Shown: piece by piece, positions 1 to 12,001 of the stretch
How positions within the stretch are numbered: position 1 is the stretch's first letter
Layout: each line of letters starts with the position of its first letter
Program-made: the position numbers and the translations under genes
Notes under the pieces: model-generated
Told to the model about the DNA's origin: nothing
The model's input: only the letters and a program-made list of their open reading frames with translations
Database searches by the model: none
Source: Pseudarthrobacter enclensis
GTDB lineage: Bacteria; Actinomycetota; Actinomycetes; Actinomycetales; Micrococcaceae
Length of the DNA stretch: 64,000 nt
Direction of reading: 5' to 3'
NCBI RefSeq assembly: GCF_001457025.1
Contig: NZ_KQ758600.1
Location: 310,001-374,000, forward strand

Positions 1-1
1 C

Positions 2-1081
2 GGCAAGGACAGCGGCAGCGAGGCAAGCCGCCGGTCCGGACGCCGGAACGCGCCGGCCGGCCCCGACCCCGCCGCGGAGGTTGACGGCGGCGTGGCGGGC
101 GCCGTCGTCGCCCTCGCCTACCCGGACCGGGTTGCTCGGCTGGTGCCCGGCGATGGACCCGCCCGGTACCTCCTGGCGTCCGGCACCAGGGCAGGTCTGC
201 CCGCGGGCAGCTCCCTGGGCGGTCACGAATGGCTGGCTGTTGCGGAGGTGTCCCGGGCCGGCGGCCGCGACGCCGCCGGGACGGGCGCGGTCATCCGGTC
301 GGCCGCGCCGCTGACCCCGGACCGCGCCGAAGCGGCCGCCGCCCACCTGCTGGCGGAATCCGTCGAAGCCGGCTTCGGCCAGGGGCGGGTCACCGCGCGG
401 AAGGTCCGGCGGCTGGGGGCGATCATCCTCGCGGACACGCCGGTCCGGCCCACCCCCGAGGCCGGGCAGGCAGCGGTTGCCGAGGCTCTCCGCCGGGACG
501 GCCTGGGCCTGCTGGAATGGTCGACGGCGGCACGCGGCCTGCGCGGCCGTCTCGACCTGCTGCGGCGGGAGCTGGGCGAACCGTGGCCGGACGTTTCCGA
601 CGAGGGGCTCCTGCGGCGCCTCGATGAGTGGCTGGGTGCGGAACTGAAGGCTCTTGCCGGCGGCGCCGCCGTCGGCAGCCTGGACCTTGCGGGGGCGCTG
701 CGGAATCTCCTGCCGTGGCCCGAGGCGGCACGGTTCGATGAGCTGGCGCCGGAATGGATTGACGTCCCCAGCGGCTCCCGGGTGCGGATCGCCTATCCGG
801 TGCCGGGGGAGGAAACCACCCGGCCGGTGGCGGCGGTGAAGCTTCAGGAGTGCTTCGGCCTGGCCGAATCGCCGCGGCTTGCCGGCGGCCGGGTCCCGGT
901 CCTGTTCCATCTGCTGTCCCCGGCGCGGCGGCCGCTGGCGGTCACGGACGACCTCACCTCGTTCTGGTCCGGCCCGTACGCCCAGGTGCGGGCCGAGATG
1001 CGGGGACGGTACCCCCGGCACCCGTGGCCCGAGGATCCCTGGACGGCCCCTGCAACGGCCCGGACCAACCGCAGGAACTGA
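2..1081 (+). CDS. hrpB: ATP-dependent helicase HrpB, C-terminal part (5' truncated by window edge)
   Basis: The reading frame is open from the window edge, so the start and the helicase core lie upstream. About 359 residues are visible. The last third carries the hallmark HrpB C-terminal domain: VPSGSRVRIAYP, then VAAVKLQECFG, then LLSPARRPLAVTDDL, then FWSGPYAQVRAEMRGRYPRHPWPEDP just before the stop. HrpB proteins are DEAH-box (DExH) helicases of uncertain substrate, thought to act on RNA. No helicase motif is inside the window, so the family call rests on this C-terminal signature. The preceding residues are Ala/Gly/Arg-rich helical sequence, consistent with the HA2-type region. Confidence 0.88.
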   Translation, partial: GKDSGSEASRRSGRRNAPAGPDPAAEVDGGVAGAVVALAYPDRVARLVPGDGPARYLLASGTRAGLPAGSSLGGHEWLAVAEVSRAGGRDAAGTGAVIRSAAPLTPDRAEAAAAHLLAESVEAGFGQGRVTARKVRRLGAIILADTPVRPTPEAGQAAVAEALRRDGLGLLEWSTAARGLRGRLDLLRRELGEPWPDVSDEGLLRRLDEWLGAELKALAGGAAVGSLDLAGALRNLLPWPEAARFDELAPEWIDVPSGSRVRIAYPVPGEETTRPVAAVKLQECFGLAESPRLAGGRVPVLFHLLSPARRPLAVTDDLTSFWSGPYAQVRAEMRGRYPRHPWPEDPWTAPATARTNRRN

Positions 1082-1232
1082 CACCGGGCGGGTTCGGCCA
1101 TGGCCCGGTACAGCGGAGTGAGAACTCCGATACGCCCGCGAAACGCGGCGTCGACGTGTTGAAACATCCCTTGCCTACGCTGGTTCCCACGCGGACACGG
1201 TGGTCCGCTCCCGCCGACACGAAGGATCCACC

Positions 1233-1397
1233 ATGATGTTTCTCCTGGACAGCCTCACCCTCCTGCTCGACGGCCGCCGCAGCGGCTCCGGCTCGTCCCC
1301 GGACAGCGCCGCCGGCGCCTTTCCCGCGGGCAGGCTGACCTCGGAAGCATGGGAAGGGTGGTGGCACGAGGACGCCGGCCACGCCGGGTCCCGGTAA
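1233..1397 (+). CDS. Small hypothetical protein, 54 aa
   Basis: The ATG at 1233 follows a GAAGGA ribosome site at 1221-1226 with a 6-nt spacer, which favours it over the in-frame GTG at 1200. The product starts MMFLLDSLTLLLDG, then a Ser/Gly/Ala linker, then a Trp-rich end (SEAWEGWWHEDAGHAG). There is no clear membrane segment beyond the short hydrophobic N-terminus and I recognise no family. It stands alone between hrpB and a convergent hydrolase whose stop is only 10 bp away. The good ribosome site and the non-random aromatic tail are the only support that it is translated. Confidence 0.5.
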   Translation: MMFLLDSLTLLLDGRRSGSGSSPDSAAGAFPAGRLTSEAWEGWWHEDAGHAGSR

Positions 1398-1407
1398 TCC
1401 TGCCCGG

Positions 1408-2094
1408 TCAGCGCAGGGACCGGACGAACTCCGCCACGGGCGCCGCCAGGGAGGCGCCCACCTCATCTGCCGGCCGTTTGGTGCCGGCCACCGCAAACGA
1501 GTGATCACCGCCGTCCACCCACTGGAGCGCCGCCGTCGGGCCGATCCTGGCCACCACATCCTCCAGGAGGTGGGCGGTGGCAAAGGTGTCCCGGCTGCCC
1601 TGCAGGAAGAGCATGGGGGTGGTCATGCCGTACAGGTGTTCGTCCCGCAGCTTCTCCGGCTTTCCCGGCGGATGCAGCGGGTAGCCGAGGTAAACCAGCC
1701 CGGCGGCGGGCATCCCCTCAGCGACTGCCATGGACGCCATCCGGCCGCCGAAAGACTTGCCGCAGGCCACCAGGGGACCAGTGTCGCCGTTGTCTGCCGC
1801 GTGTCCGGCGGCGGCCTCCATCACCGCCCGCCACGTTGCGATGGCCAGCGGCGGCCGGTCCGGAAACTTCCGCCCGGCGTCGCGGTAGGGAAAATTGAAC
1901 CGCAGCGTGGCAGCCCCCAGAGCATTCAACGCATCAGTGAATCCGCGGAGGAAGGGGTGCTCCATCCCGGCGCCGGCGCCGTGGGCCACCACCACCGTGG
2001 GTACCTGCGCTCCAGGATCGCCGGGCCGGGCGTAGGCGGCGGACACCACGGTGTCGCCAACCGGGATGGACAATTGCTGGTCGGTGTCAGGCAT
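1408..2094 (-). CDS. Alpha/beta hydrolase (dienelactone hydrolase/KANL3-Tex30-like)
   Basis: A 228-aa cytoplasmic hydrolase. Oxyanion-type HGAGAGM is at residues 38-44, the nucleophile elbow GKSFGG has Ser114, and the other triad candidates are Asp169 (GSRDT) and His198 (GGDHSF). The double Gly after the nucleophile is typical of the small hydrolases related to human TEX30/KANL3. The substrate is unknown. I chose ATG at 2094 over an upstream GTG because it heads the conserved beta strand and because a CATGAT hexamer (2106-2101) ends 6 nt before it. It diverges from the LigD polymerase gene across 69 bp. Confidence 0.85.
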   Translation of the reverse strand: MPDTDQQLSIPVGDTVVSAAYARPGDPGAQVPTVVVAHGAGAGMEHPFLRGFTDALNALGAATLRFNFPYRDAGRKFPDRPPLAIATWRAVMEAAAGHAADNGDTGPLVACGKSFGGRMASMAVAEGMPAAGLVYLGYPLHPPGKPEKLRDEHLYGMTTPMLFLQGSRDTFATAHLLEDVVARIGPTAALQWVDGGDHSFAVAGTKRPADEVGASLAAPVAEFVRSLR

Positions 2095-2151
2095 GGCTCC
2101 ATCATGCCGGACCCTGCAGCGCAAATGTGCCCCGCCGCTGCCGGCGGGGTG

Positions 2152-2157
2152 TACGTT
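2152..2157 (+). promoter_or_regulatory. Probable -10 box of leaderless LigD-polymerase gene
   Basis: TACGTT ends 6 nt before the ATG at 2164 and no Shine-Dalgarno sequence precedes it. The spacing puts the transcription start on the start codon itself. It also rejects the long in-frame upstream extension that runs antisense through the hydrolase. Confidence 0.5.
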
Positions 2158-2163
2158 GGCCCC

Positions 2164-3186
2164 ATGGCGAGCGAACAGACCACCATCACCGTCCCGGGCC
2201 CCAACGGCGAGCGCGCGATGCGCATATCAAGCCCCAGCCGGGTCCTGTGGCCGGCGCTCGGCCTGACCAAGCTCGACCTTGCACGCTATATCTGCGACGT
2301 CGGTGAGGCGTTCATCGCGGCCAACGGCGACCGGCCGGTATCCCTGCAGCGGTACCCGGACAACATCGACGGCGAGATGTTCTTCTCGAAGAACCCGCCC
2401 CGCGGCACGCCGGACTTTGTCCGCTCGGTCAAGGTGGTGTACCCCAGTGCGCGTTCCCACCCGCAGCTGGTGCTCGACGAACCGGCCGCCGCCGTCTGGG
2501 CGGTCCAGATGAACACCGTGGTGTTCCATCCCTGGCCGTCGCGGGCGGAGAACACGGACAGTCCGGACCAGTTGCGCATCGACCTGGACCCGCAACCGGG
2601 CACTGACTTCGACGACGCCATTCCTGCTGCCAAGGTCCTGCGGGATGTCCTGGCCGAGGCTGGACTGGAATCCTTCATCAAGACCTCCGGCAACCGCGGC
2701 CTCCACGTCTACGCACCCATCAAACCCGTCCGCGAGTTCCTGGACGTCCGGCACGCCGTCATTGCGGCCGCCCGGGAGGTGGAACGGCGGATGCCGGACA
2801 AGGTGACCACGGCCTGGTGGAAGGAGGAACGCGGTGAGCGGATCTTCCTCGACTTCAACCAGGCGAACAGGGACCGGACCATCGCCGGCGCCTACAGCCC
2901 CCGCGCCCTGCCGCACGCCCCGGTGTCCTGCCCCATCACGTGGGACGAACTGGAAACGGTTGATCCGAAGAACTTCACCGTCCTCACCGTCCCGGACCGG
3001 CTCAAGACCGTCGGGGACCCGTGGGCCGGGTTCGGGGACAAGCAAGGCAGCATCGACACGCTGCTGGAGTGGTGGGAGCGGGACACGGCCTCCGGCCTCG
3101 GCGAAATGCCGTTCCCGCCCGATTACCCCAAGATGCCCGGCGAGCCGCCGCGCGTCCAGCCGAGCCGCGCCCGCAAGCAGGACTAA
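2164..3186 (+). CDS. Stand-alone LigD polymerase-domain protein (DNA repair primase-polymerase)
   Basis: A 340-aa protein matching only the polymerase (PrimPol/AEP) module of LigD; there is no ligase or phosphoesterase module in frame. The metal-binding DxD is at Asp140/Asp142 (RIDLDPQ), the nucleotide-binding SGNRGLHVY at about 175-183, and the third acidic position likely in RIFLDFNQ near residue 227. In actinobacteria such proteins take part in Ku-dependent end joining or gap filling, adding nucleotides, often ribonucleotides. Ku is not in this window. The tail is Pro/Arg-rich. It is convergent with the following YciO-like gene, 36 bp apart. Confidence 0.92.
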   Translation: MASEQTTITVPGPNGERAMRISSPSRVLWPALGLTKLDLARYICDVGEAFIAANGDRPVSLQRYPDNIDGEMFFSKNPPRGTPDFVRSVKVVYPSARSHPQLVLDEPAAAVWAVQMNTVVFHPWPSRAENTDSPDQLRIDLDPQPGTDFDDAIPAAKVLRDVLAEAGLESFIKTSGNRGLHVYAPIKPVREFLDVRHAVIAAAREVERRMPDKVTTAWWKEERGERIFLDFNQANRDRTIAGAYSPRALPHAPVSCPITWDELETVDPKNFTVLTVPDRLKTVGDPWAGFGDKQGSIDTLLEWWERDTASGLGEMPFPPDYPKMPGEPPRVQPSRARKQD

Positions 3187-3222
3187 GCCGCACACCCCGA
3201 AACGGGCAACCGCGGCACGGAT

Positions 3223-3843
3223 TTACTCGAAACGGGAAGGATCGCCCATCCCGCGGCGGACCACTTCCGCAACCCCGCTGGAGAAGTCCACCACCGTGGT
3301 GGGCTCGGATCCGCAGTCGCCGGCGTCGATCACCGCATCCACCTGGTGGTCCAGCCGCTCCTTGATCTCCCAGCCGACGGTCAGCGGCTCATCCTCGTCC
3401 GCCAGCAGCAGGGTGCTGGAGAGCAGCGGCTCACCGAGTTCGGCCAGCAGGGCCTGCACCACCCGGTTGTCCGGGATCCGCACTCCCACCGTCTTCTTCC
3501 TGGGGTGCAGCAGCCGCTTGGGGACCTCCTTCGTGGCAGGGAGGATGAACGTATAACTGCCAGGGGTGACGGACTTGATGCTCCGGAACACGTCGTTGCC
3601 GATGTTCACGAACTGCCCCAGCTGCGCGAAGTCGCGGCACACCAGCGTGAAATGGTGCTTGTCGTCCAGGTGGCGGATGCTCCTGATGCGGTCCAGTGCT
3701 TCCCGGTTGCCCATCTGCGCCCCCAGGGCGTAGCAGGAATCCGTGGGGTAGGCGATCAGGCCGCCGTCGCGCACAATGCGGACGGCCTGCGCGATGGCGC
3801 GGGGCTGCGGATCGTGGGGGTGGACATCGAAGAACTTTGCCAT
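3223..3843 (-). CDS. YciO/Sua5/YrdC-family protein (L-threonylcarbamoyladenylate synthase-like)
   Basis: A 206-aa single-domain YrdC-fold protein. Family members make threonylcarbamoyl-AMP from threonine, bicarbonate and ATP for the t6A37 modification of tRNA; the YciO branch is weaker and its role is less clear. YPTDSCYALG near residue 32 and the basic stretch RSIRHLDDKHHFTLVC fit the nucleotide pocket. Length and the absence of the C-terminal Sua5 domain place it with YciO or TsaC. I prefer ATG 3843 to GTG 3846 because a TAGGCT box ends 6 nt before it. Whether it is the cell's true TsaC cannot be told here. Confidence 0.85.
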   Translation of the reverse strand: MAKFFDVHPHDPQPRAIAQAVRIVRDGGLIAYPTDSCYALGAQMGNREALDRIRSIRHLDDKHHFTLVCRDFAQLGQFVNIGNDVFRSIKSVTPGSYTFILPATKEVPKRLLHPRKKTVGVRIPDNRVVQALLAELGEPLLSSTLLLADEDEPLTVGWEIKERLDHQVDAVIDAGDCGSEPTTVVDFSSGVAEVVRRGMGDPSRFE

Positions 3844-3849
3844 CACACG

Positions 3850-3855
3850 AGCCTA
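3850..3855 (-). promoter_or_regulatory. Probable -10 box of leaderless yciO-like gene
   Basis: On the minus strand TAGGCT ends 6 nt before the ATG at 3843, with no ribosome site between. Same layout as at 12276, 13318 and 16200. Confidence 0.55.
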
Positions 3856-3919
3856 CGTTCCTTTTGGTCGGCGGCCAGCACATTTCCCGGTTGCGTCGCC
3901 CCTCGGGCGGCGGGGCGGG

Positions 3920-5896
3920 TCAGCCAACATGCACCCACGGCCGCTGCGTCACATCGGGTTCGGCCTCGCGCAGGATTTCGCGGGTGACCGGGGCGATCTC
4001 GCCTTCCCCCAGCACCAGGAAGCGCAGGAGGTTGGACACCGGGTTGCCTTCGGTCCAGCGGAAGTAGATGTGCGGCATCAGGCCGGTGACGTCCCGGATG
4101 TGGAGCAGCACGGAGGCGATGGTGTTGGGCACCACCGGTCCGTGGACCTCCAGCACCGGGTAGCCGTGCCGGAGGATCCCGCGCACTTCCAGGGCCGTTT
4201 CGAAGTCGGATGAATCGTCCACCACCACCTCCAGGAACAGGGGCGTGACGTTGTCCGGGAAATGGCTTGCCTCGGTGGCGGAGGCCAGCTTGCGGCGGTA
4301 GGCCTCGGCGGACTGGCGCAGCGGTTCGTGGGCGATGATGCCAATGGGACCGGACACCGCCGAGGTCACGAATTCCAGCGCCTGGGTGTCCAGGCGCACG
4401 TGCGTGGCGTGCAGCTCGAAGGAGCGCAGCACCCTGGACAGCAGCGAGATCGCCACGATGGCCAGGATGAAGAACCCGGCGATCCGGATGCCCTCGGGCC
4501 GTTCAAAGATGTTCGCGACGGTGGTGTAGGTGAACAGCAGGGCAATGACGGCGAACGCGGCCGTCCGGCGCCGCTGCCGCAGCCGCCGGGCCGACAGCGT
4601 TACGGCCACCGCTGCGGACGTCATCAGCACCAGTACGCCGGTGGCGTACGCACCACCCTGGGCGTCGACGTCGGCCTCGAACAGGATGGTGACCAGGAAC
4701 CCCGTCAGCGTGAACACCAGCACCAGGGGGCGGACCGCCTTGGCCCACTCGGGCGCCATGCCGTACCGGGGAAGGTACCGGGGCACCAGGTTCAGCAGGC
4801 CGGCCATGGCGGAAGCACCGGCGAACCAGAGGATGGCGATGGTGCTGATGTCGTAAACGGTGCCGAACTCGGGACCCAGGTAGGTGTGGGCCAGGAATGC
4901 CAGGGCGCGCCCGTTTGCCTCCCCGCCGGGCTGGAACTGCTGCTCCGGGATCAGCACCACCGTGGCGAAGCTGCTGGTGATCAGGAAGGTGCTCATGATC
5001 AGGGCGGCCGTGGTCAGCATCCGGCGCGTCCCCCGGATGCGGCCGGCCGGGTTGGCGTCGGTGTCGCCGGCGGCGCCCTTGATCTGGGGCATCACCGCCA
5101 CCCCGGTCTCAAAACCTGACAGGCCCAGTGCCAGGCGCGGGAAGACCAGCAACGCCACCGCTACCGCCATCAACGGGTTTCCGTGGCTGGTGGTCAGGGC
5201 ATCCCACCACCCGCTGACGGCCACCGGATGCGTGGCGGCTTCGCCCAGCGCCCGGGCCACCACCACGACGTTCAGGGCAAGGTACACAGCCACCAGCAGC
5301 ACCGCGACGCCGATGGCTTCGCGGAAGCCGCGCAGGAAGACGGCGGCCAGCAGGCACAGCAGGACCAGGGTGATGGTGACGTTCTGGCCGTGCAGCCAGC
5401 CGGGTGCGAAAGGGTTCTCGATCAGGTGGGCCGTGGCGTCGGCTGCCGAGAGGGTCATGGTGATCATGAAGTCCGTTGCGGCGAAGCCCAGCAGGACCAG
5501 CACCAGCAGCTTGCCGCCCCAGCGGGGAAGGAGGCGCTCCAGCATGGCAATGGACCCTTCGCCGCGGGGACTCTCCGCGGCCACCCGCCGGTACACGGGC
5601 AGCGCGCCCAGCAGCGTCACGGCCACCAGCACCAGGGTGGCCAGCGGGGAGATGGCGCCGGCGGCGAGGGCGGCGATGGCCGGCTGGTAGCCCAGGGTGG
5701 AGAAGTAGTCCACGCCGGTCAGGCACATCACCTGCCACCAGTGGTGTTTCCGGTGCCCGCTGCCGGACACCCCGCCCGGACCCTGGTGCGTGCCCTTTGC
5801 GTCCTGCAGCCCGAAGAGCAGCCAGTTCTTCAGCACCACCGCACGGGGCAGCGGAGGGGCCGAAGGGTCAGCCGGGGGCCGGCTCATGGTGGTCAT
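3920..5896 (-). CDS. APC-superfamily permease, candidate K+ transporter
   Basis: About 658 aa with around twelve hydrophobic segments between residues 55 and 475 and a long cytoplasmic C-terminal tail. The sequence [20 protein letters not shown] opens the first membrane segment, as in APC-fold transporters, and [10 protein letters not shown] is APC-like. Many relatives are annotated only as amino acid permease. Its divergent neighbours are a KdpD-like kinase and KdpE-like regulator, and some APC members (KimA) import K+, so K+ uptake is a reasonable inference but not shown. ATG 5896 follows GGAAG/AAAGG; the in-frame open stretch up to 6202 crosses the divergent kinase start and is rejected. 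Confidence 0.85.
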
Positions 5897-5988
5897 CGCC
5901 ACGCCTTTCACTTCCTGCCCCGGCACGGCGCCCGGGCACAGCCGAACGTAGCACCGGGCCAGGGCCGCGGCCCCCGGAAACCGGGGAT

Positions 5989-6005
5989 CTTGACGCATCC
6001 TTAAC
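5989..6005. promoter_or_regulatory. Candidate KdpE-type binding site (11-bp-phased direct repeat)
   Basis: CTTGAC at 5989-5994 and CTTAAC at 6000-6005 repeat with an 11-bp period (read on the other strand GTTAAG then GTCAAG). OmpR/PhoB-class regulators such as KdpE bind tandem half-sites spaced this way. It lies in the 184-bp gap between the permease and the kinase gene, so it could serve both. Inferred by pattern only. Confidence 0.4.
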
Positions 6006-6080
6006 GCCGCTGTGAGCAGACCCACACGGCGGCGGCCGGGGTGGCATCCGGGCGGCGTCCGTAGTGGAAGAATGTGCCTC

Positions 6081-7925
6081 ATGGCAACCGAACGGATCGT
6101 CGTCGGGCTCAAGGGCGGGGACGACGGCGGACCCCTGGTGCAGCGCGCCGCCCGGCTTTCCCGGCGCAGCGGCGGTGACGTCCTGGCCGTGCACGTCCGC
6201 ACGGCGTCGGGCTCCCGGCGGGAGTCTCCCCGCGCCCTTGAAGAACAGCGCCGGGCCGTGGCCGGGCTAGGCGGCGAATACCACGCCCTTGCCGGGCCCG
6301 ACGTCGCCCGTGCTCTGCTGGACTATGCCCGGTCAGTCCAGGCCACCCACATCCTGGTGGGACAGTCCCGCCGCAGGAGGTTCGCGGGACTGTTCAAGGG
6401 CAGCGTCGAAGCCCGGGTGGTGCGGGACGCCGGAGACATCGACGTCCAAGTGGTTCCGCGCAGTCCGGGCCCCGCGCCGGTGCGGCGGCCGCGCACGGAA
6501 CTGGGCAGGGCACGGACCCTGGCCGGCTTCGCCCTCGCAGCGTTTGTCCCGGCCGGCCTGCAGCTGCTCCTCGCCGTGTTCGACCACAGCGTGGCCACGG
6601 CGGTGCTGGTCCAGCTGGCCGGGGCGGTTGCGGTCGCCCTGGTCGGAGGCCTGTGGCCGGCGGTGGCCGGTGCCCTGTGGAGCAGCCTGCTGGTCAACTA
6701 CTTCTCAACCCCGCCGGTGGGGGACCTGGCCATTCACGACCCCCAGGACGTCCTGGCGCTGGTGGTTTTCGTGGGAGTGTCCGTGGCGGTGGCCGGAGTG
6801 GTGGACGGCTCCGCCAGGCGCTCCAAGGAAGCGGCACGGGCCCGATCCGAAGCGGCCACCCTGGGCGACCTGGCCCTGGGCGCCTCCCGGTCCGAGGATT
6901 CGCTGCAGGGCCTGCTCACGGAATCACTCAGCGCCTTCGGCGTGGCGGGCGCGGCCGTCATCGGGGCGGCGGAACCGCCGGGCGGCTGGCGGCTGCTTGC
7001 CGGGGCAGGCGACACCACCGGCTGGGAGGACGGCCCCCGGGGTATGGCCCGGAGCGCGGAACCCGTGGACGGCACCACCTGGCTGGTCCTGTTCGGCCGC
7101 GACGTCCCGGCCTCCGGGCGGCGCCTGCTGGGTGCCTTCGCCGTGCACGTGAGGGCGCGGCTGGAACGGCGGCAGCTTGAGGCCAGCCGCGCCGAAATTT
7201 CCCGGCTGGCCGAGGGGAATGCGATGCGCACCGCCATCCTGCGGGCCGTGTCCCATGACCTGCGCACCCCACTGGCCGGCATCAAGCTGGCCGCGGGCGG
7301 CCTGCTGCAGGACGGCGTCGGCTACGGTCCGGAGGAGCGGAGGGAACTGCTGGAAACCATCGACCAGTGCACGGACCGCCTGGACACGCTGGTGGGGAAC
7401 CTCCTGGACATGTCACGGATTACGGCCCAGTCGGTTGAACCGCTGCTGGAACCGGTCCGGTGGCGGGAGGCGGTGGACCATGCGCTGCGGCCGCTCCCGG
7501 CGGGCGCGGTGACTCTCGCGCTGCCGACCAACATGCCGCCCGTGGACGCGGACCCCGGCCTGCTGGAGCGGGCCATCGCCAACATCGTAGAGAATGCCGT
7601 GAAGTATGCGGCCGGTACGGGCATCACCATTTCGGGAGTCCCGGCGGGCCTGACCGGTGCCGCGGCCGGCGGCCACCCCGCCGGCGAACTGCGGATCATC
7701 GACCACGGCCCGGGCGTTCCGGCCCGGAAGGTGGTGGAGATGTTCCAGCCGTTCCAGCGGCTGGGCGACGCGGACCAGGGGACGGGCATCGGCCTGGGCC
7801 TTGCGGTGGCGCAGGGCTTCGTGCAGGCGATGCGCGGAACCCTTGAGGCGGAGGAAACGCCGGGCGGCGGACTGACGATGGTCATCCGGTTGCCGCTTTC
7901 GGCCGGAGCGCCGGTGGCGGCATGA
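6081..7925 (+). CDS. KdpD-like sensor histidine kinase without the KdpD K+-sensing N-domain
   Basis: 614 aa. Residues 1-125 are the universal-stress-protein domain found in KdpD ([36 protein letters not shown]). About 140-235 hold the DUF4118-type membrane block, then a GAF-like linker, then the kinase: His392 in [10 protein letters not shown]-box [11 protein letters not shown]-boxes DHGPGVP and [13 protein letters not shown]. Full KdpD begins with a Walker-containing sensor domain of over 200 aa; it is absent here. ATG 6081 is chosen over 6072 because GGAAG at 6066-6070 suits it. Its stop overlaps the next start by 4 bp. Likely a membrane sensor for K+ or osmotic state. Confidence 0.9.
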
Positions 7926-8644
7926 CGGAGAACGGCGGAGGGACGACGGCGGCAGCCGGCACCGGGGGCGGCGCCCGGGTGCTGGTGGTGGATGACGATC
8001 CCCACCTCCTGAAAGCCCTGCGGATCACCTTGGGCGCCCACGGCTACACGGTGGATTCAGCCGGCGACGGGGCGGCGGCGGTAGAGGCCGCCTCCAGGAC
8101 CGCCCCGGATGTGCTCGTCCTGGACCTCGGCCTCCCGGACATGGACGGCGTGGACGTGCTGCGGGACGTGCGGCGCTGGAGCAACCTGCCCGTCTTGGTG
8201 CTCTCGGCCCGACACGGCTCATCGGACAAGGTCGGCGCGCTGGACGCGGGCGCGGACGACTACATCACCAAGCCTTTCGGCCTTGATGAGCTGCTTGCCC
8301 GGCTGCGCGCCCTGCTGCGGCGGGTTCCGGCCCCGGAAGCCGCGCCGGTGGTGGCCTCGGCGGCGTTCAGCGTGGACCTGGCCGGCCGCCGGGTGGACCG
8401 AGGCGGCAGCCCGGTCCGGCTGACGCCCACGGAATGGAAGATCCTCGAAATCCTCGTGACGAATCCTTCCAGGCTCGTCACGCAGCAGCAGCTGCTGGCC
8501 CGGGTGTGGGGGCCGGGATATGTCAAGGAAGCAAACTACCTGCGCGTGTACATGGCCCAGCTGCGGCGGAAGCTGGAGCCTGACCCCGGCAAGCCCCGCC
8601 ACCTGCTGACCGAACCGGGCATCGGATACCGGTTCGTTCCCTGA
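7922..8644 (+). CDS. KdpE-like response regulator (OmpR/PhoB family)
   Basis: 240 aa. Receiver domain at about 18-130 with acidic pocket VVDDDP (24-26), phospho-acceptor Asp68 in VLDLGLPDMDG and the conserved Lys in DDYITKPFG. Winged-helix DNA-binding domain at about 145-240 (LTPTEWKILEILV, ending GIGYRFVP). The ATGA overlap with the kinase makes it its cognate partner. KdpE normally activates kdpFABC; no kdpFABC genes are in this window, and the closest candidate target is the divergent APC permease. An extra Gly/Ala-rich stretch of about 18 residues precedes the receiver. Confidence 0.92.
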   Translation: MTENGGGTTAAAGTGGGARVLVVDDDPHLLKALRITLGAHGYTVDSAGDGAAAVEAASRTAPDVLVLDLGLPDMDGVDVLRDVRRWSNLPVLVLSARHGSSDKVGALDAGADDYITKPFGLDELLARLRALLRRVPAPEAAPVVASAAFSVDLAGRRVDRGGSPVRLTPTEWKILEILVTNPSRLVTQQQLLARVWGPGYVKEANYLRVYMAQLRRKLEPDPGKPRHLLTEPGIGYRFVP

Positions 8645-8753
8645 CGCAGGGGGCCGCCGGACCTTCCACGGACCCCTACCACCCGGGCAGCCTTTGGGGC
8701 AGGATGTTGTCTGGTTCCACCATGAGCACATCCCCACGCGAAGGAGATTCAGC

Positions 8754-9185
8754 ATGCCGACCATCCTCAACCCCTACATCAGCTTCCGGGACAACGCCCG
8801 GGAGGCGCTGAACTTCTACCAGTCCGTCTTCGGCGGCGACCTGCGGGTCAGTACCTTCGGCGAATACCAGATGGCCGAGGACCCGGCCGAGGCGGAGAAG
8901 ATCATGCACGGGATGCTGACCACTCCCAACGGCCTGGTCCTCATGGGGTCGGACACGCCCAGCAGCATGGAATTCTCCGAGGGCTCCGCCATTTCCATTT
9001 CGCTCAGCGGCGAGGACGAAACGGAACTGCGCGGCTACTACGACAAGCTCAGCGACGGCGGCTCGGTGACGGTGCCCATGGAGAAGTCCCCCTGGGGTGA
9101 CGTGTTCGGCATGTGCACGGACCGGTACGGCGTTGCGTGGCTGGTCAACGCCAACGCAGGGGAGCGCGCCGCTGACGCGCCCTGA
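8754..9185 (+). CDS. VOC-superfamily protein, PhnB-like
   Basis: 143 aa. ATG 8754 follows a strong AAGGAG at 8741-8746. The sequence NPYISFRDNAREALNFYQSVFGG and WGDVFGMCTDRYGVAWLVN is the glyoxalase/bleomycin-resistance fold of the PhnB (DUF1338-unrelated, 3-demethylubiquinone-like) group. Such proteins are small dimeric enzymes or binding proteins with a paired beta-alpha-beta-beta-beta fold. The substrate is unknown. It is a single-gene unit followed by a terminator hairpin. Confidence 0.88.
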   Translation: MPTILNPYISFRDNAREALNFYQSVFGGDLRVSTFGEYQMAEDPAEAEKIMHGMLTTPNGLVLMGSDTPSSMEFSEGSAISISLSGEDETELRGYYDKLSDGGSVTVPMEKSPWGDVFGMCTDRYGVAWLVNANAGERAADAP

Positions 9186-9203
9186 CAGCAGGCCCGCAGC
9201 GCA

Positions 9204-9238
9204 GGGGTCCGGTCCGCGGGATGCGCGGGCCGGGCCCC
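9204..9238 (+). terminator. Rho-independent-type hairpin after the VOC gene
   Basis: Arms 9204-9218 and 9224-9238 pair over 15 bp with two G-U pairs and a 5-nt loop, very GC-rich, followed by only two T residues. It sits 18 bp after the stop codon. Confidence 0.6.
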
Positions 9239-9324
9239 TTGCCTGAGGGACGGACTTGTGCGCCCCGCGGGAGCGGGGGAGAGGGCGCCTTGAGGGAGCC
9301 TGTGGTCCCTGCGAGGATGGGGGA

Positions 9325-10005
9325 GTGGAATCCCTTTTTGAGTTCCTCTCCGACAAGTGGTGGCTTGTCTTTCCGTTGACCGCGTTCGCCGGGCATTACG
9401 CGAATTCGTGGCGCAAGGCCAGCGAACGCCGGCACCGTCGGAAGGTGGAGCTGCTCACGCTGAAGAACCAGGCCCGGGAGTCCGGGAGGGCCGCCACCGC
9501 GGAGGTCGAGGCCCTGATGGCCACCCACGACGCCACCAACCGCCGGTGGCTGGAATACGAACTCGACGTCGGCAAACTCATCGACTTCCCGCTGATGACA
9601 GACGTGCGTGAACCGCTGACCGTGGCCTTCCTGCGGGCCAAGCGCGACGCCGACGGCCAGCGGCCCGTCTCCCCGGCGGACCTGCCGGCCGCCCACATGG
9701 AGTCCTACCGGAAGGCCGTCAACGCTTTCGCGGTGGCCCTGGAGGTGGCTGAGAGGGAAGCGCGGCGGATCCGTGACAGCAAATTCACCGGTCCGGAGCG
9801 GGAGCGCCTGGCCACTGCCCGGAAGCTGCTCATGATTGCCGAGAACGGTGCCGCGACCCCGGCCGAGCGGCAGGCGGCCTACAAGCGGGCACGCCGTGAG
9901 CTGGACGGGCTGATCGTGCTGCCGGACGTGACCATTGCCGCGCTGGAGAGGCGGGCCGCGCCGGGCCTGGACACCGGCCGCGCGCCGTCGGACCAGCCGG
10001 GCTGA
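9325..10005 (+). CDS. Hypothetical protein with one N-terminal membrane segment
   Basis: 226 aa from GTG 9325 (start VESLFEFLSDKWW). A hydrophobic stretch WWLVFPLTAFAGHYA at about 11-25 is followed by a basic, helical soluble part rich in Arg, Glu and Ala (KASERRHRRKVELLTLKNQ), likely coiled coil and cytoplasmic. Similar proteins occur in Arthrobacter without known function; I recognise no domain. GTG is preferred because GAGGAT ends 6 nt before it, although GGGGGA directly before it may also act in initiation. The next gene begins 17 bp after its stop, so they may be co-expressed. Confidence 0.75.
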   Translation: MESLFEFLSDKWWLVFPLTAFAGHYANSWRKASERRHRRKVELLTLKNQARESGRAATAEVEALMATHDATNRRWLEYELDVGKLIDFPLMTDVREPLTVAFLRAKRDADGQRPVSPADLPAAHMESYRKAVNAFAVALEVAEREARRIRDSKFTGPERERLATARKLLMIAENGAATPAERQAAYKRARRELDGLIVLPDVTIAALERRAAPGLDTGRAPSDQPG

Positions 10006-10021
10006 ACCACCGGGGCATGCG

Positions 10022-10528
10022 TTGGCACGGACGCTCTACCTCGACGTCGACGGCGTCATTTGCCCTTTCGGACCGGCTGGTACCACCGGCTGGGGCACCC
10101 CGTGGCGGACAGCCGACGCCGGACTGCTGCCGGTTGCCTACGCCGCCGAACTGGTCGCAGGACTCAACAGCATCTCCCGTCAGGACGGCGTCCGCTGCGT
10201 CTGGCTGACCAGCTGGGAGGAACTCGCGCCCCGGTATCTGTGCCCGGCCATCGGGCTCGACGGCGGCACGTGGCCTTGGCTGTCCGCTGACGGGCCGGCC
10301 TCCGGAGACGGCTGGTGGAAGCTGAGGGCCCTTCAGGCCGACCTGGAGGCCACCGGGCCGGAGGCCGTTGCCTGGATCGATGACCAGCTCGACCATGAGG
10401 CCGAAGCAGGGCTTTGGGCCCGGCTGCTCGGTCCGCGGCTGCTGGGGGTTTCGCCCGATCCGCGGCACGGAATTTCACCCGCCCAGTTGCAGTCCGTGAC
10501 CACTTTCCTGGCCGGGCCGGTGTTTTGA
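10022..10528 (+). CDS. HAD-like protein of the Swiss-army-knife RNA-repair type
   Basis: 168 aa from a TTG at 10022, 6 nt after GGGG; an ATG at 10017 is in the wrong frame. It starts LARTLYLDVDGVICPFG: DVDG is HAD motif I. VWLTSWEELA is motif II-like, and AWIDDQLDHEAEA supplies the acidic motif IV. This layout is that of the HAD domain found associated with predicted Swiss Army Knife RNA repair proteins. It is a stand-alone domain here. A phosphatase acting on nucleic acid ends is a family-based guess; activity is not known. Confidence 0.75.
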   Translation: MARTLYLDVDGVICPFGPAGTTGWGTPWRTADAGLLPVAYAAELVAGLNSISRQDGVRCVWLTSWEELAPRYLCPAIGLDGGTWPWLSADGPASGDGWWKLRALQADLEATGPEAVAWIDDQLDHEAEAGLWARLLGPRLLGVSPDPRHGISPAQLQSVTTFLAGPVF

Positions 10529-10681
10529 CCTGCTGCCCGGGGCGCGTACGATCGATAGGGTTTCACACCGGCTTGGTAAACCGCACAGGACATTCCCCGC
10601 GAACATCCGGTGAATTATGCTGTGCAAGGCAGCCGGGGGCACAGAAACTGCTGAACGCCAACACTGCAGATTGGGCAACAG
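10529..10681 (+). other. Intergenic leader region before pit
   Basis: 153 bp with no coding sequence. GAATTATGCTGT near 10611-10622 contains a TATGCT that could be a -10 box, which would give a leader of about 55 nt. I see no clear -35 box or terminator. Confidence 0.3.
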
Positions 10682-12001
10682 GTGGACATCACCTTCATGG
10701 TGGCGCTGGTCATCGCACTGGCTCTATTTTTCGACTTCACGAACGGCTTCCACGACACCGCGAACGCCATGGCAACCCCCATCGCCACGGGGGCCATCAA
10801 GCCGAAGACAGCGGTCACTCTGGCGGCCCTGCTGAACCTGGTGGGTGCCTTCCTGTCCACGGAAGTGGCCAAGACGGTCTCCGGCGGCATCATCCGTGAA
10901 GGTGCCGACGGGGTCCAGATCACGCCGGAGATCATCTTCGCCGGCCTGATGGGCGCCATCCTCTGGAACATGATCACGTGGCTCAAGGGCCTGCCCTCCA
11001 GTTCCTCCCACGCGCTGTTCGGCGGGCTGATCGGTGCTGCAATTGCCGGCATCGGCTTTGGCTCGGTGAACCTGGAGACCCTCCTGCAGAAGGTCATCCT
11101 CCCCGCCGTGTTCGCCCCACTGATCGCGGGACTGGTGGCCTACGTCTGCACCCGCCTGGCCTACGCCCTGACTTCCCGGCACGACCCCGAAACGGGCAGC
11201 AAGCTGACGCAGAAGCGCGGCGGTTTCCGGACCGGCCAGATCTTCACCTCCAGCCTGGTGGCCCTGGCCCACGGCACCAATGACGCCCAGAAGACCATGG
11301 GCATCATCACCCTGGTCCTCATCGCAGCAGGCACCCAGGCACCCGGCACCGGGCCGCAGTTCTGGGTCATCGCCGCCTGTGCCTTCGCCATCGCCATCGG
11401 CACCTACTCCGGCGGCTGGCGGATCATCCGCACCATGGGCTCCGGCCTCACGGAGGTGAAGCCTGCCCAGGGCTTCGCCGCCGAGACCAGCACGGCGTCC
11501 GCCATCCTCGCCTCCTCGCACCTGGGCTTCGCCCTGTCCACCACGCAGGTGGCCTCCGGCTCAGTCATCGGCTCCGGCATGGGCCGCCGCGGCACCACGG
11601 TCCGCTGGAGCATGGTGGGCAGGATCGCGCTCGGCTGGCTGTTCACCCTGCCGGCCGCCGGAATCGTGGGCGCCCTGACCGCCCTGCTGGTCAACACCGG
11701 CGTCGTGGGAATCCTCATTGCCGCCATCGCAGGAACCGGCGCGGTCCTGTTCATGTTCTTCTACTCACGCAAGTCCGCCGTGGGCCACCACAACGCCGTC
11801 GAGGTGGAAGAAGCGGGCCAGGCCGTCCGCTTCGCCAAGAAGAAGGCACGGGCGAAAGCCCGGGCCGACGCCAGGGCCAAGGCCTCGGCAGAAGCCAAGG
11901 CCAAAGCCGACACCAAGGCCCAACCCAAGCCCCGCGCGGAAACGGACGCCGCGGCACAGTCCGACGCCGATGCCACCACCCCCAAGGAGACGCAGCGATG
12001 A
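10682..12001 (+). CDS. PiT-family inorganic phosphate transporter with long basic C-terminal tail
   Basis: 439 aa. The PiT signature FDFTNGFHDTANAMAT is at about 14-29, and its second copy, ALAHGTNDAQKTMGI, near 200. About ten membrane segments end near residue 365. The remaining about 75 residues are Lys/Ala/Arg repeats (KKKARAKARADARAKASAEA) ending in an acidic Asp/Ala stretch. It imports phosphate (or metal-phosphate) with the proton gradient. No DUF47/PhoU-like accessory gene precedes it here. GTG 10682 is the listed start; ATG 10697 is possible. Its stop overlaps the next start by 4 bp. Confidence 0.92.
   Translation: MDITFMVALVIALALFFDFTNGFHDTANAMATPIATGAIKPKTAVTLAALLNLVGAFLSTEVAKTVSGGIIREGADGVQITPEIIFAGLMGAILWNMITWLKGLPSSSSHALFGGLIGAAIAGIGFGSVNLETLLQKVILPAVFAPLIAGLVAYVCTRLAYALTSRHDPETGSKLTQKRGGFRTGQIFTSSLVALAHGTNDAQKTMGIITLVLIAAGTQAPGTGPQFWVIAACAFAIAIGTYSGGWRIIRTMGSGLTEVKPAQGFAAETSTASAILASSHLGFALSTTQVASGSVIGSGMGRRGTTVRWSMVGRIALGWLFTLPAAGIVGALTALLVNTGVVGILIAAIAGTGAVLFMFFYSRKSAVGHHNAVEVEEAGQAVRFAKKKARAKARADARAKASAEAKAKADTKAQPKPRAETDAAAQSDADATTPKETQR

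Follow-up and report, generated by a model that had tools for sequence, protein, structure and literature searches.

What does a KdpD/KdpE-like two-component pair control in a genome that encodes no KdpFABC pump? The question is raised by a 64,000-nucleotide stretch of Pseudarthrobacter enclensis DNA (NCBI RefSeq assembly GCF_001457025.1, contig NZ_KQ758600.1, positions 310,001 to 374,000 of the forward strand; here called the window), in which the stop of a KdpD-derived sensor kinase gene overlaps the start of a KdpE-like response regulator gene and a permease gene is divergent from both. We favor, at a probability of roughly 0.73, the interpretation that the three genes constitute a K+-uptake module in which a KimA-like K+/H+ symporter is placed under KdpDE-type control. 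An initial annotation of the locus had assigned the open reading frames and their coordinates correctly, and the elements considered here, in window positions, are as follows.

3920..5896, minus strand: KimA-like APC-fold permease, 658 amino acids (open reading frame; best start, ATG at 5896)
5904..5909, minus strand: Shine-Dalgarno-like GAAAGG before the permease ATG (read off the sequence; AAGG conserved in the footprint)
5945..5953, minus strand: putative -10-like element TGCTACGTT of the permease promoter (from the footprint)
5990..6006, no strand assigned: TTGACG-N5-TTAACG, an 11-bp direct repeat and candidate box of the KdpE-like regulator (footprint and genome scan)
6081..7925, plus strand: KdpD-derived sensor kinase, 614 amino acids (Pfam domains, KdpD core match)
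7922..8644, plus strand: KdpE-like response regulator, 240 amino acids, with phospho-acceptor D68 and a winged-helix C terminus (Pfam, NCBIfam)

The host genome (G000; 4.23 Mb, or 4,226,231 bases in 18 contigs, 99.97% complete) contained no KdpA, no N-terminal KdpD domain (PF02702) and no K_trans/Kup protein. The initial annotation had suspected that kdpFABC and a full-length kdpD were missing, and this was borne out; the finding that it had named as fatal to its proposal, a complete kdpFABC operon located elsewhere next to its own kdpDE, does not apply, since neither KdpA nor the KdpD N-terminal domain occurs. The same genome encodes two TrkH proteins, one DAC-domain protein (diadenylate cyclase) and one KimA-like protein (L199), which matches KimA chain 6s3k at an E value of 1.7e-102 and is closer to KimA than the window permease is.

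The permease had no Pfam match over the cut-off and no NCBIfam match; the gathering scores for K_trans (PF02705) and AA_permease_2 (PF13520) were not reached, and it is therefore called KimA-like only and not a Kup or KimA orthologue. Direct PDB sequence searches with the permease, as a single sequence or as a profile, returned nothing, with the profile even at an E value of 10, and KimA was reached by fold, by hhalign and by profile search of the host genome only. Two models of the permease were made, the first from 17 sequences (predicted local distance difference test score [pLDDT], 71) and the second, of better quality, from 61 (pLDDT, 84). In Foldseek searches, KimA entries held ranks 1 to 3 with both models (best E values, 2.8e-12 and 1.1e-14), versus 4.3e-7 and 2.1e-9 for the best non-KimA entry, and VIA-align gave KimA Z scores of 34.3 and 41.5 versus 29.5 and 36.6 for the next chain. 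The second model was aligned with KimA over 512 residues (model residues 49 to 658) with a root mean square deviation of 14.3 Å, and a deviation of about 14 Å probably reflects a different placement of the cytoplasmic domain. The KimA alignments (487 to 513 residues) extend to the last residue of the permease, whose C-terminal alpha/beta domain begins at about residue 497, and the AdiC alignments (369 to 423 residues) end by residues 634 to 635; besides KimA, only human cation-chloride cotransporters align as far as residue 658. At the profile level, hhalign aligned the permease family with 10 KimA-like proteins found in relatives (probability, 96.2; E value, 2.4e-9; 419 columns) and gave a probability of at most 1.27 for 14 amino-acid APC proteins of the host genome, these being 14 of its 16 non-KimA AA_permease_2 matches (L196 and L197 were dropped as poor frames). 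When the permease family profile was run against the host genome, the second match was L199 (E value, 8e-5).

The residues of the K+/H+ site were then compared, using KimA numbering verified against the 6s3k chain. As far as the accounts in PMC6994465 and PMC10284832 go, the higher-resolution KimA map shows K+ coordinated by D36, Y43, T230 and Y377, and simulation and mutants extended the K+ residues to T121. In the same accounts, H+ coupling is the role of E233, and a part in trans-inhibition has been suggested for D117. The corresponding permease residues (KimA number in parentheses) are D63 (D36), Y70 (Y43), D142 (D117), T146 (T121), S150 (S125), S260 (T230), E263 (E233) and Y417 (Y377). 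Seven of these positions, namely, D63, Y70, T146, S150, S260, E263 and Y417, were invariant in 140/140 permease rows (the window counted twice, some organisms taken from two collections, e.g., L031/L224, and one homologue with a stop dropped), one of the seven (S260) being Ser where KimA has Thr; D142 was found in 132 of the 140. D63, Y70, T146 and Y417 were aligned to the KimA sites by hhalign and E263 by motif and spacing. The invariant R373 of the permease falls on KimA R337 in hhalign, beside a 9-residue gap, with the rest of the c-di-AMP site unaligned. A positional signature of four sites was present in 140/140 permease rows, in 9 of the 10 KimA-like proteins and in 0/14 amino-acid APCs, the first transmembrane helix (TM1) part of the KimA-like score not being independent because that set was chosen by the TM1 motif SSVAY, which contains Y43. 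From the modeled fold and the conserved residues, the permease is probably a K+/H+ symporter belonging to a family sister to KimA. The family was found in 34/148 genomes of the class sample and 24/246 genomes of the phylum sample, a few weak or partial matches included.

The association of this permease with a KdpDE-like pair is real and conserved. The closest named relative of the permease (95% identical) is in P. chlorophenolicus, and five named relatives (L031, L033, L034, L036 and L041) have the same divergent permease-kinase pair, which argues for more than chance. Elsewhere, members of the permease family are linked to KdpD/KdpE-like genes in divergent, upstream and downstream arrangements. 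Among 70 permeases that were mapped, 40 were close to that of the window (at least 75% identity), and 29 of these 40 had a DUF4118 kinase within 12 kb (22 full length, 7 truncated); for more distant permeases, the proportions were 0/12 at 68 to 74% identity, 1/1 at 65% and 3/17 at 54 to 56%. KdpA lay within 12 kb of 10/40 close permeases, all 10 among the 22 with a full-length kinase. The earlier proposal that an APC symporter replaces the Kdp ATPase is therefore only partly right. Of 49 genomes of the genus, 15 had KdpA, 27 had the KdpD N-terminal domain over the cut-off, and 12 had the N-terminal domain without KdpA; in 12/12 of the last group a family member lay no more than 5 kb from the kinase, although in one of them (G156) only a paralogue at 54% identity was near it. 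Permease-TrkH pairs within 12 kb were also in excess (12 versus 0.65 expected); in six, the distance was no more than 750 bp. The permease paralogues at 54 to 56% identity in L230, L231, L233, L234, L238 and G174 C22 lie 105 to 738 bp from trkH, and in 4/6 cases the two genes share a strand.

Between the permease and kinase genes lies TTGACGCATCCTTAACG (5990 to 6006), a 17-bp element built as an 11-bp direct repeat with the pattern TTGAYG-N5-TTWACG. Direct repeats of 11 bp are of the kind used by OmpR-family regulators. The -10-like sequence TGCTAnnTTCGGC occurs downstream of the box at near-constant spacing in relatives. A match to the box was found upstream of 47/51 close permeases (a set overlapping between collections, as do the 140 rows), mostly at about -95 to -125 (-155 in L002); the four scoring below 18 were L046, L125, L132 and L133. 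It was retained with the permease where no kinase is near (L137, L138 and L143). The threshold was reached in 0/2000 random 330-bp segments, taken from one side of named loci. Since 28 boxes from the close permease regions themselves served to train the matrix, independent support comes from scans of kdpA, of trkH and of the whole genome. All 13 kdp loci scanned at the genus level had the box about 300 to 350 bp before kdpA (scores, 14 to 23, versus a top random score of 13.6 from segments shorter than the kdpA regions); 2 of 10 more distant kdp rows reached a score of 15 (KdpA rows L111 and L237 are one locus). It lay directly upstream of 3/12 trkH genes, in L238 (22.1) and in L117 and L118 (32.3; trkH opposite kdpA), and in L230, L231, L233 and L234 it preceded a permease that itself precedes trkH. 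The host genome has a single site that fits the pattern exactly and three that deviate from it at one position, and a reversed control pattern gave none; the host TrkH and KimA-like loci that were scanned (L283, L284 and L199) had no box site scoring 10 or more. Riboswitch control was ruled out by a cmscan search of positions 1 to 12000, in which four matches appeared, none at the gathering score, and no c-di-AMP riboswitch was found.

The kinase follows the KdpD domain order of USP, DUF4118 and histidine kinase, with matches over Pfam cut-offs for Usp (residues 4 to 117), the DUF4118 membrane domain (residues 151 to 254), HisKA and HATPase_c; residues 255 to 382 occupy the place of the KdpD GAF domain and have no Pfam match. 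Its closest solved core is the KdpD histidine kinase 6lgq (E value, 8.3e-24), and its membrane part matches the solved KdpD membrane domain 2ksf (E value, 2.4e-4). The best NCBIfam model was KdpD (174 of 1123 bits), the equivalog cut-off not being reached. Likewise, the regulator matched Response_reg and Trans_reg_C in Pfam and retains D68 and K117; it is filed as KdpE-like because its best NCBIfam model, KdpE, scored 253 bits against a cut-off of 325. The kinase therefore keeps the USP and membrane parts of KdpD, as had been recognized initially. PF02702 was absent from it by Pfam, so that the loss of the N-terminal domain also stands; the K+-sensing role assigned to that domain does not, as the E. 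coli KdpD N-terminal domain is described, in the portion of PMC11018627 drawn on here, as an atypical serine kinase with KdpB as its substrate, and the sensing of K+ is placed in the TM/GAF part. A further suggestion, that the USP domain binds ATP or c-di-AMP, was not upheld: neither the published c-di-AMP motif of the KdpD USP domain, (A/G/C)XSXSX2N(Y/F) (given in the part of PMC8214093 used here), nor the ATP-type motif G-X2-G-X9-G-S/T occurred in any of 67 related USP domains, that of the window kinase included, although other residues could still bind.

In the tree, the window kinase and nine other truncated kinases form a clade (support, 100); this clade lies inside a larger one that also holds 20 full-length KdpDs from the genus, and 15 of those full-length proteins are linked to kdpFABC. 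A single origin of 14 truncated kinases was rejected by the approximately unbiased test (P value = 3e-89; the group was chosen by its trait, and L248 and L249, two of its rows, had no USP match and may represent a different type of kinase). Truncation arose more than once. In G161, all that is left of the N-terminal domain of the kinase is approximately its first 30 residues.

Together, these components suggest a mechanism. The permease would act as a KUP-superfamily K+/H+ symporter whose family is sister to KimA, as its fold and invariant residues suggest. At low K+, the kinase, by analogy with its family, would sense through its membrane part and the part in the place of the GAF domain and would phosphorylate the KdpE-like regulator; the latter may then bind the TTGAYG-N5-TTWACG repeat at 5990 to 6006, a box delimited by footprint, and the bound regulator would activate the divergent permease promoter. 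The kinase itself descends, according to the tree, from a full-length KdpD of the kdpFABC-linked kind, and it has lost the serine-kinase domain, perhaps because the known target of that domain, KdpB, is absent from the genome.

A number of observations weigh against a K+-uptake module. Linkage is not universal, 11/40 close permeases having no DUF4118 kinase within 12 kb, and 5 of the 10 window-type truncated kinases (in G174, G181, G172, G157 and G163) stand at the syntenic place without a permease, which is elsewhere in those genomes. In G002 (L232:3324-3845), the kinase is a USP/DUF4118 fragment only, the divergent permease and the box being intact. Amino-acid APCs such as ApcT and AdiC are also high fold matches (Z up to 36.6). 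Four single KimA-like sequences varied widely in hhalign (probabilities of 97, 86, 10 and 3), and of the KimA-like set only L199 was compared with KimA itself. The S260/E263 pair of TM6 rests on motif and spacing because hhalign does not place it on T230/E233. Against four Kup sequences (from 7 Kup loci), the permease family gave a probability of 2.1, amounting to nil, and Kup membership was rejected on that ground. As for the box, it is absent directly before 9/12 trkH genes and rare in distant permeases (3/19 at 68 to 74% identity, 4/63 at 60 to 67% and 0/6 below). Finally, 13 related permeases (62 to 77% identical, 11 of them at 69 to 71%) adjoin a gene of one agmatinase-like cluster (L046, L049, L050, L052, L054, L056-L060, L065, L066 and L098). 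Neighbors were named by NCBIfam only for L046 and L050 in this group. Those of L046 are an agmatinase over the cut-off and, both under the cut-off, a thiamine diphosphate enzyme near the guanidino-oxopentanoate decarboxylase model and an EmrB-like MFS protein; L050 has an SSS-type symporter nearby.

It is the agmatinase-like neighborhoods, together with the high fold matches of AdiC and other cationic amino-acid APCs and a buried Asp that could hold an ammonium group, that would fit a permease carrying an organic cation (agmatine, putrescine or a guanidino compound) or an amino acid and a pair controlling osmotic or polyamine homeostasis instead of K+ uptake. We consider this unlikely: KimA ranked above the amino-acid APCs in both fold searches and by profile, the signature is missing in 14/14 amino-acid APCs, and close family members are linked to kdpFABC, KdpDE and TrkH and have a promoter box in common with kdpFABC. 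The K+ residues were intact in 15/15 rows comprising the agmatinase-adjacent group and two neighbors, with D142 in 14. Decay would offer another account, in which KdpDE was left behind after loss of kdpFABC and merely stands beside an unrelated housekeeping permease. This would fit the lost N-terminal domain, the kinase fragment of G002, a broken permease copy at the locus in G188, and a host genome with a single exact box and three one-mismatch sites, but we judge it quite improbable, as the window kinase retains H392 (HisKA), N505 (HATPase_c) and both glycine boxes, the regulator retains D68, the box is conserved, and the truncated clade of 10 has been kept across genomes at 67 to 84% identity to the window kinase.

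The regulator could also serve mainly other genes, such as that of a Pit-like transporter or a salt-stress regulon, with the box belonging to an unrelated regulator or to the core promoter; indeed, TTGACG resembles a -35 hexamer, and one of the three one-mismatch sites lies near an open reading frame that we take to encode a glycoside hydrolase. Given that the distance from the box to the permease start is kept across gene arrangements and that the box is also present ahead of kdpA in the genus and, in L117 and L118, between kdpA and trkH, we regard this as very unlikely. The permease is most likely a K+ transporter that serves a KdpDE-type pair, as had been proposed initially, in view of its KimA fold and residues and of a box common to kdpFABC and some trkH genes.

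Whether the locus exemplifies something broader, we hold to be an even question. The proposal would be that of a separate K+ uptake system, with KdpDE rewired from a P-type pump to a KimA-like symporter family that Pfam and NCBIfam do not know, with the serine-kinase domain (in the window clade, G162 and G161) or its catalytic lysine lost repeatedly after the sensor had ceased to serve KdpFABC, and with a shared KdpE box joining symporter, pump and some TrkH in one regulon. In favor of the K+-uptake module itself, a full domain with the Walker-A lysine was found in 21/21 kdpFABC-adjacent kinases versus 8/29 others (Fisher P value = 6.5e-8; in 14 of the 29 the domain is absent, and in 7 the lysine is replaced), a contrast that reduces, when phylogeny is considered, to only 3 independent pairs, none contrary, and is then not significant. 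Also unfavorable to the module is that five full-length KdpDs away from kdpFABC retain GVGKT and an intact Walker B and that G150 and G174 carry kdpFABC plus a separate truncated kinase. The latter two genomes, with the small number of independent contrasts, weaken loss of the domain as a simple result of pump loss; since both have the pump and a separate truncated kinase, the loss seems to follow the client of the kinase and not the pump content of the genome. The full-length KdpDs in which Walker-A GKT has become GTT or GMT are L236, L241, L251, L252, L255, L256, L257 and L037. L234 and L277 retain the Walker-A lysine, with Walker B changed.

Compared with known systems, the permease resembles KimA of Bacillus subtilis (KUP family; PDB 6S3K, 8B70 and 8B71) in its APC/LeuT fold with a C-terminal alpha/beta cytoplasmic domain and in the invariance of the D36, Y43, T121, S125, E233 and Y377 positions, T230 being Ser. 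It differs in sharing only about 15% identity and no Pfam family with KimA, in coexisting with the closer KimA relative L199, and in a control that looks two-component, whereas KimA is reported, in the text of PMC10284832 consulted, to be inactivated by c-di-AMP. The pair has the USP, DUF4118 and histidine kinase parts of KdpD and a KdpE-like regulator and nests among the KdpDs of the genus, but lacks PF02702, has no kdpFABC in its genome, and neighbors a symporter-like permease. According to the section of PMC11018627 available to us, which surveyed 5495 pump-bearing species (those with an annotated Kdp pump), the N-terminal domain is retained in almost all KdpD versions; the short KdpD (KdpD plus USP only) described there from Deinococcus and others is likewise domain-reduced, but is a mirror image, with the serine kinase kept and the histidine kinase lost. 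The TrkH and KdpFABC neighborhoods of Arthrobacter relatives share the same kind of box, at kdpFABC and some trkH genes, and the same clusters, but their transporter classes differ. In Streptomyces, kdpDE is noted near trkA in the excerpt of PMC13118837 used here. A KdpDE-permease pair of the present kind was not found in searches of the open-licence PMC literature, which does not prove its absence. If the interpretation as a K+-uptake module holds, an unnamed permease family would gain a function, Kdp signaling would be seen to outlive its pump and to change its client, and the domain losses would allow a natural test of whether phosphorylation of KdpB is what the KdpD N-terminal domain is for, as has been proposed. 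The regulon can be tested directly through the predicted KdpE box.

With regard to other features, the one-mismatch box copy at G000:C1:223466-223482 (L279), the one near the presumed glycoside hydrolase, looked like a chance site. The permease had been described as the only nearby transport target, and this part of the initial annotation fell even as the divergent APC-fold permease itself was confirmed, for a Pit-like transporter lies at 10682 to 12001 (best NCBIfam model PitA, under its cut-off). The block from 2191 to 12001, consisting in order of a gene that we take to be LigD-like, Sua5/YrdC, the permease, the kinase, the regulator, a gene that we take to be VOC-like and the gene of the Pit-like transporter, keeps its synteny in the compared relatives, with the permease present or absent.

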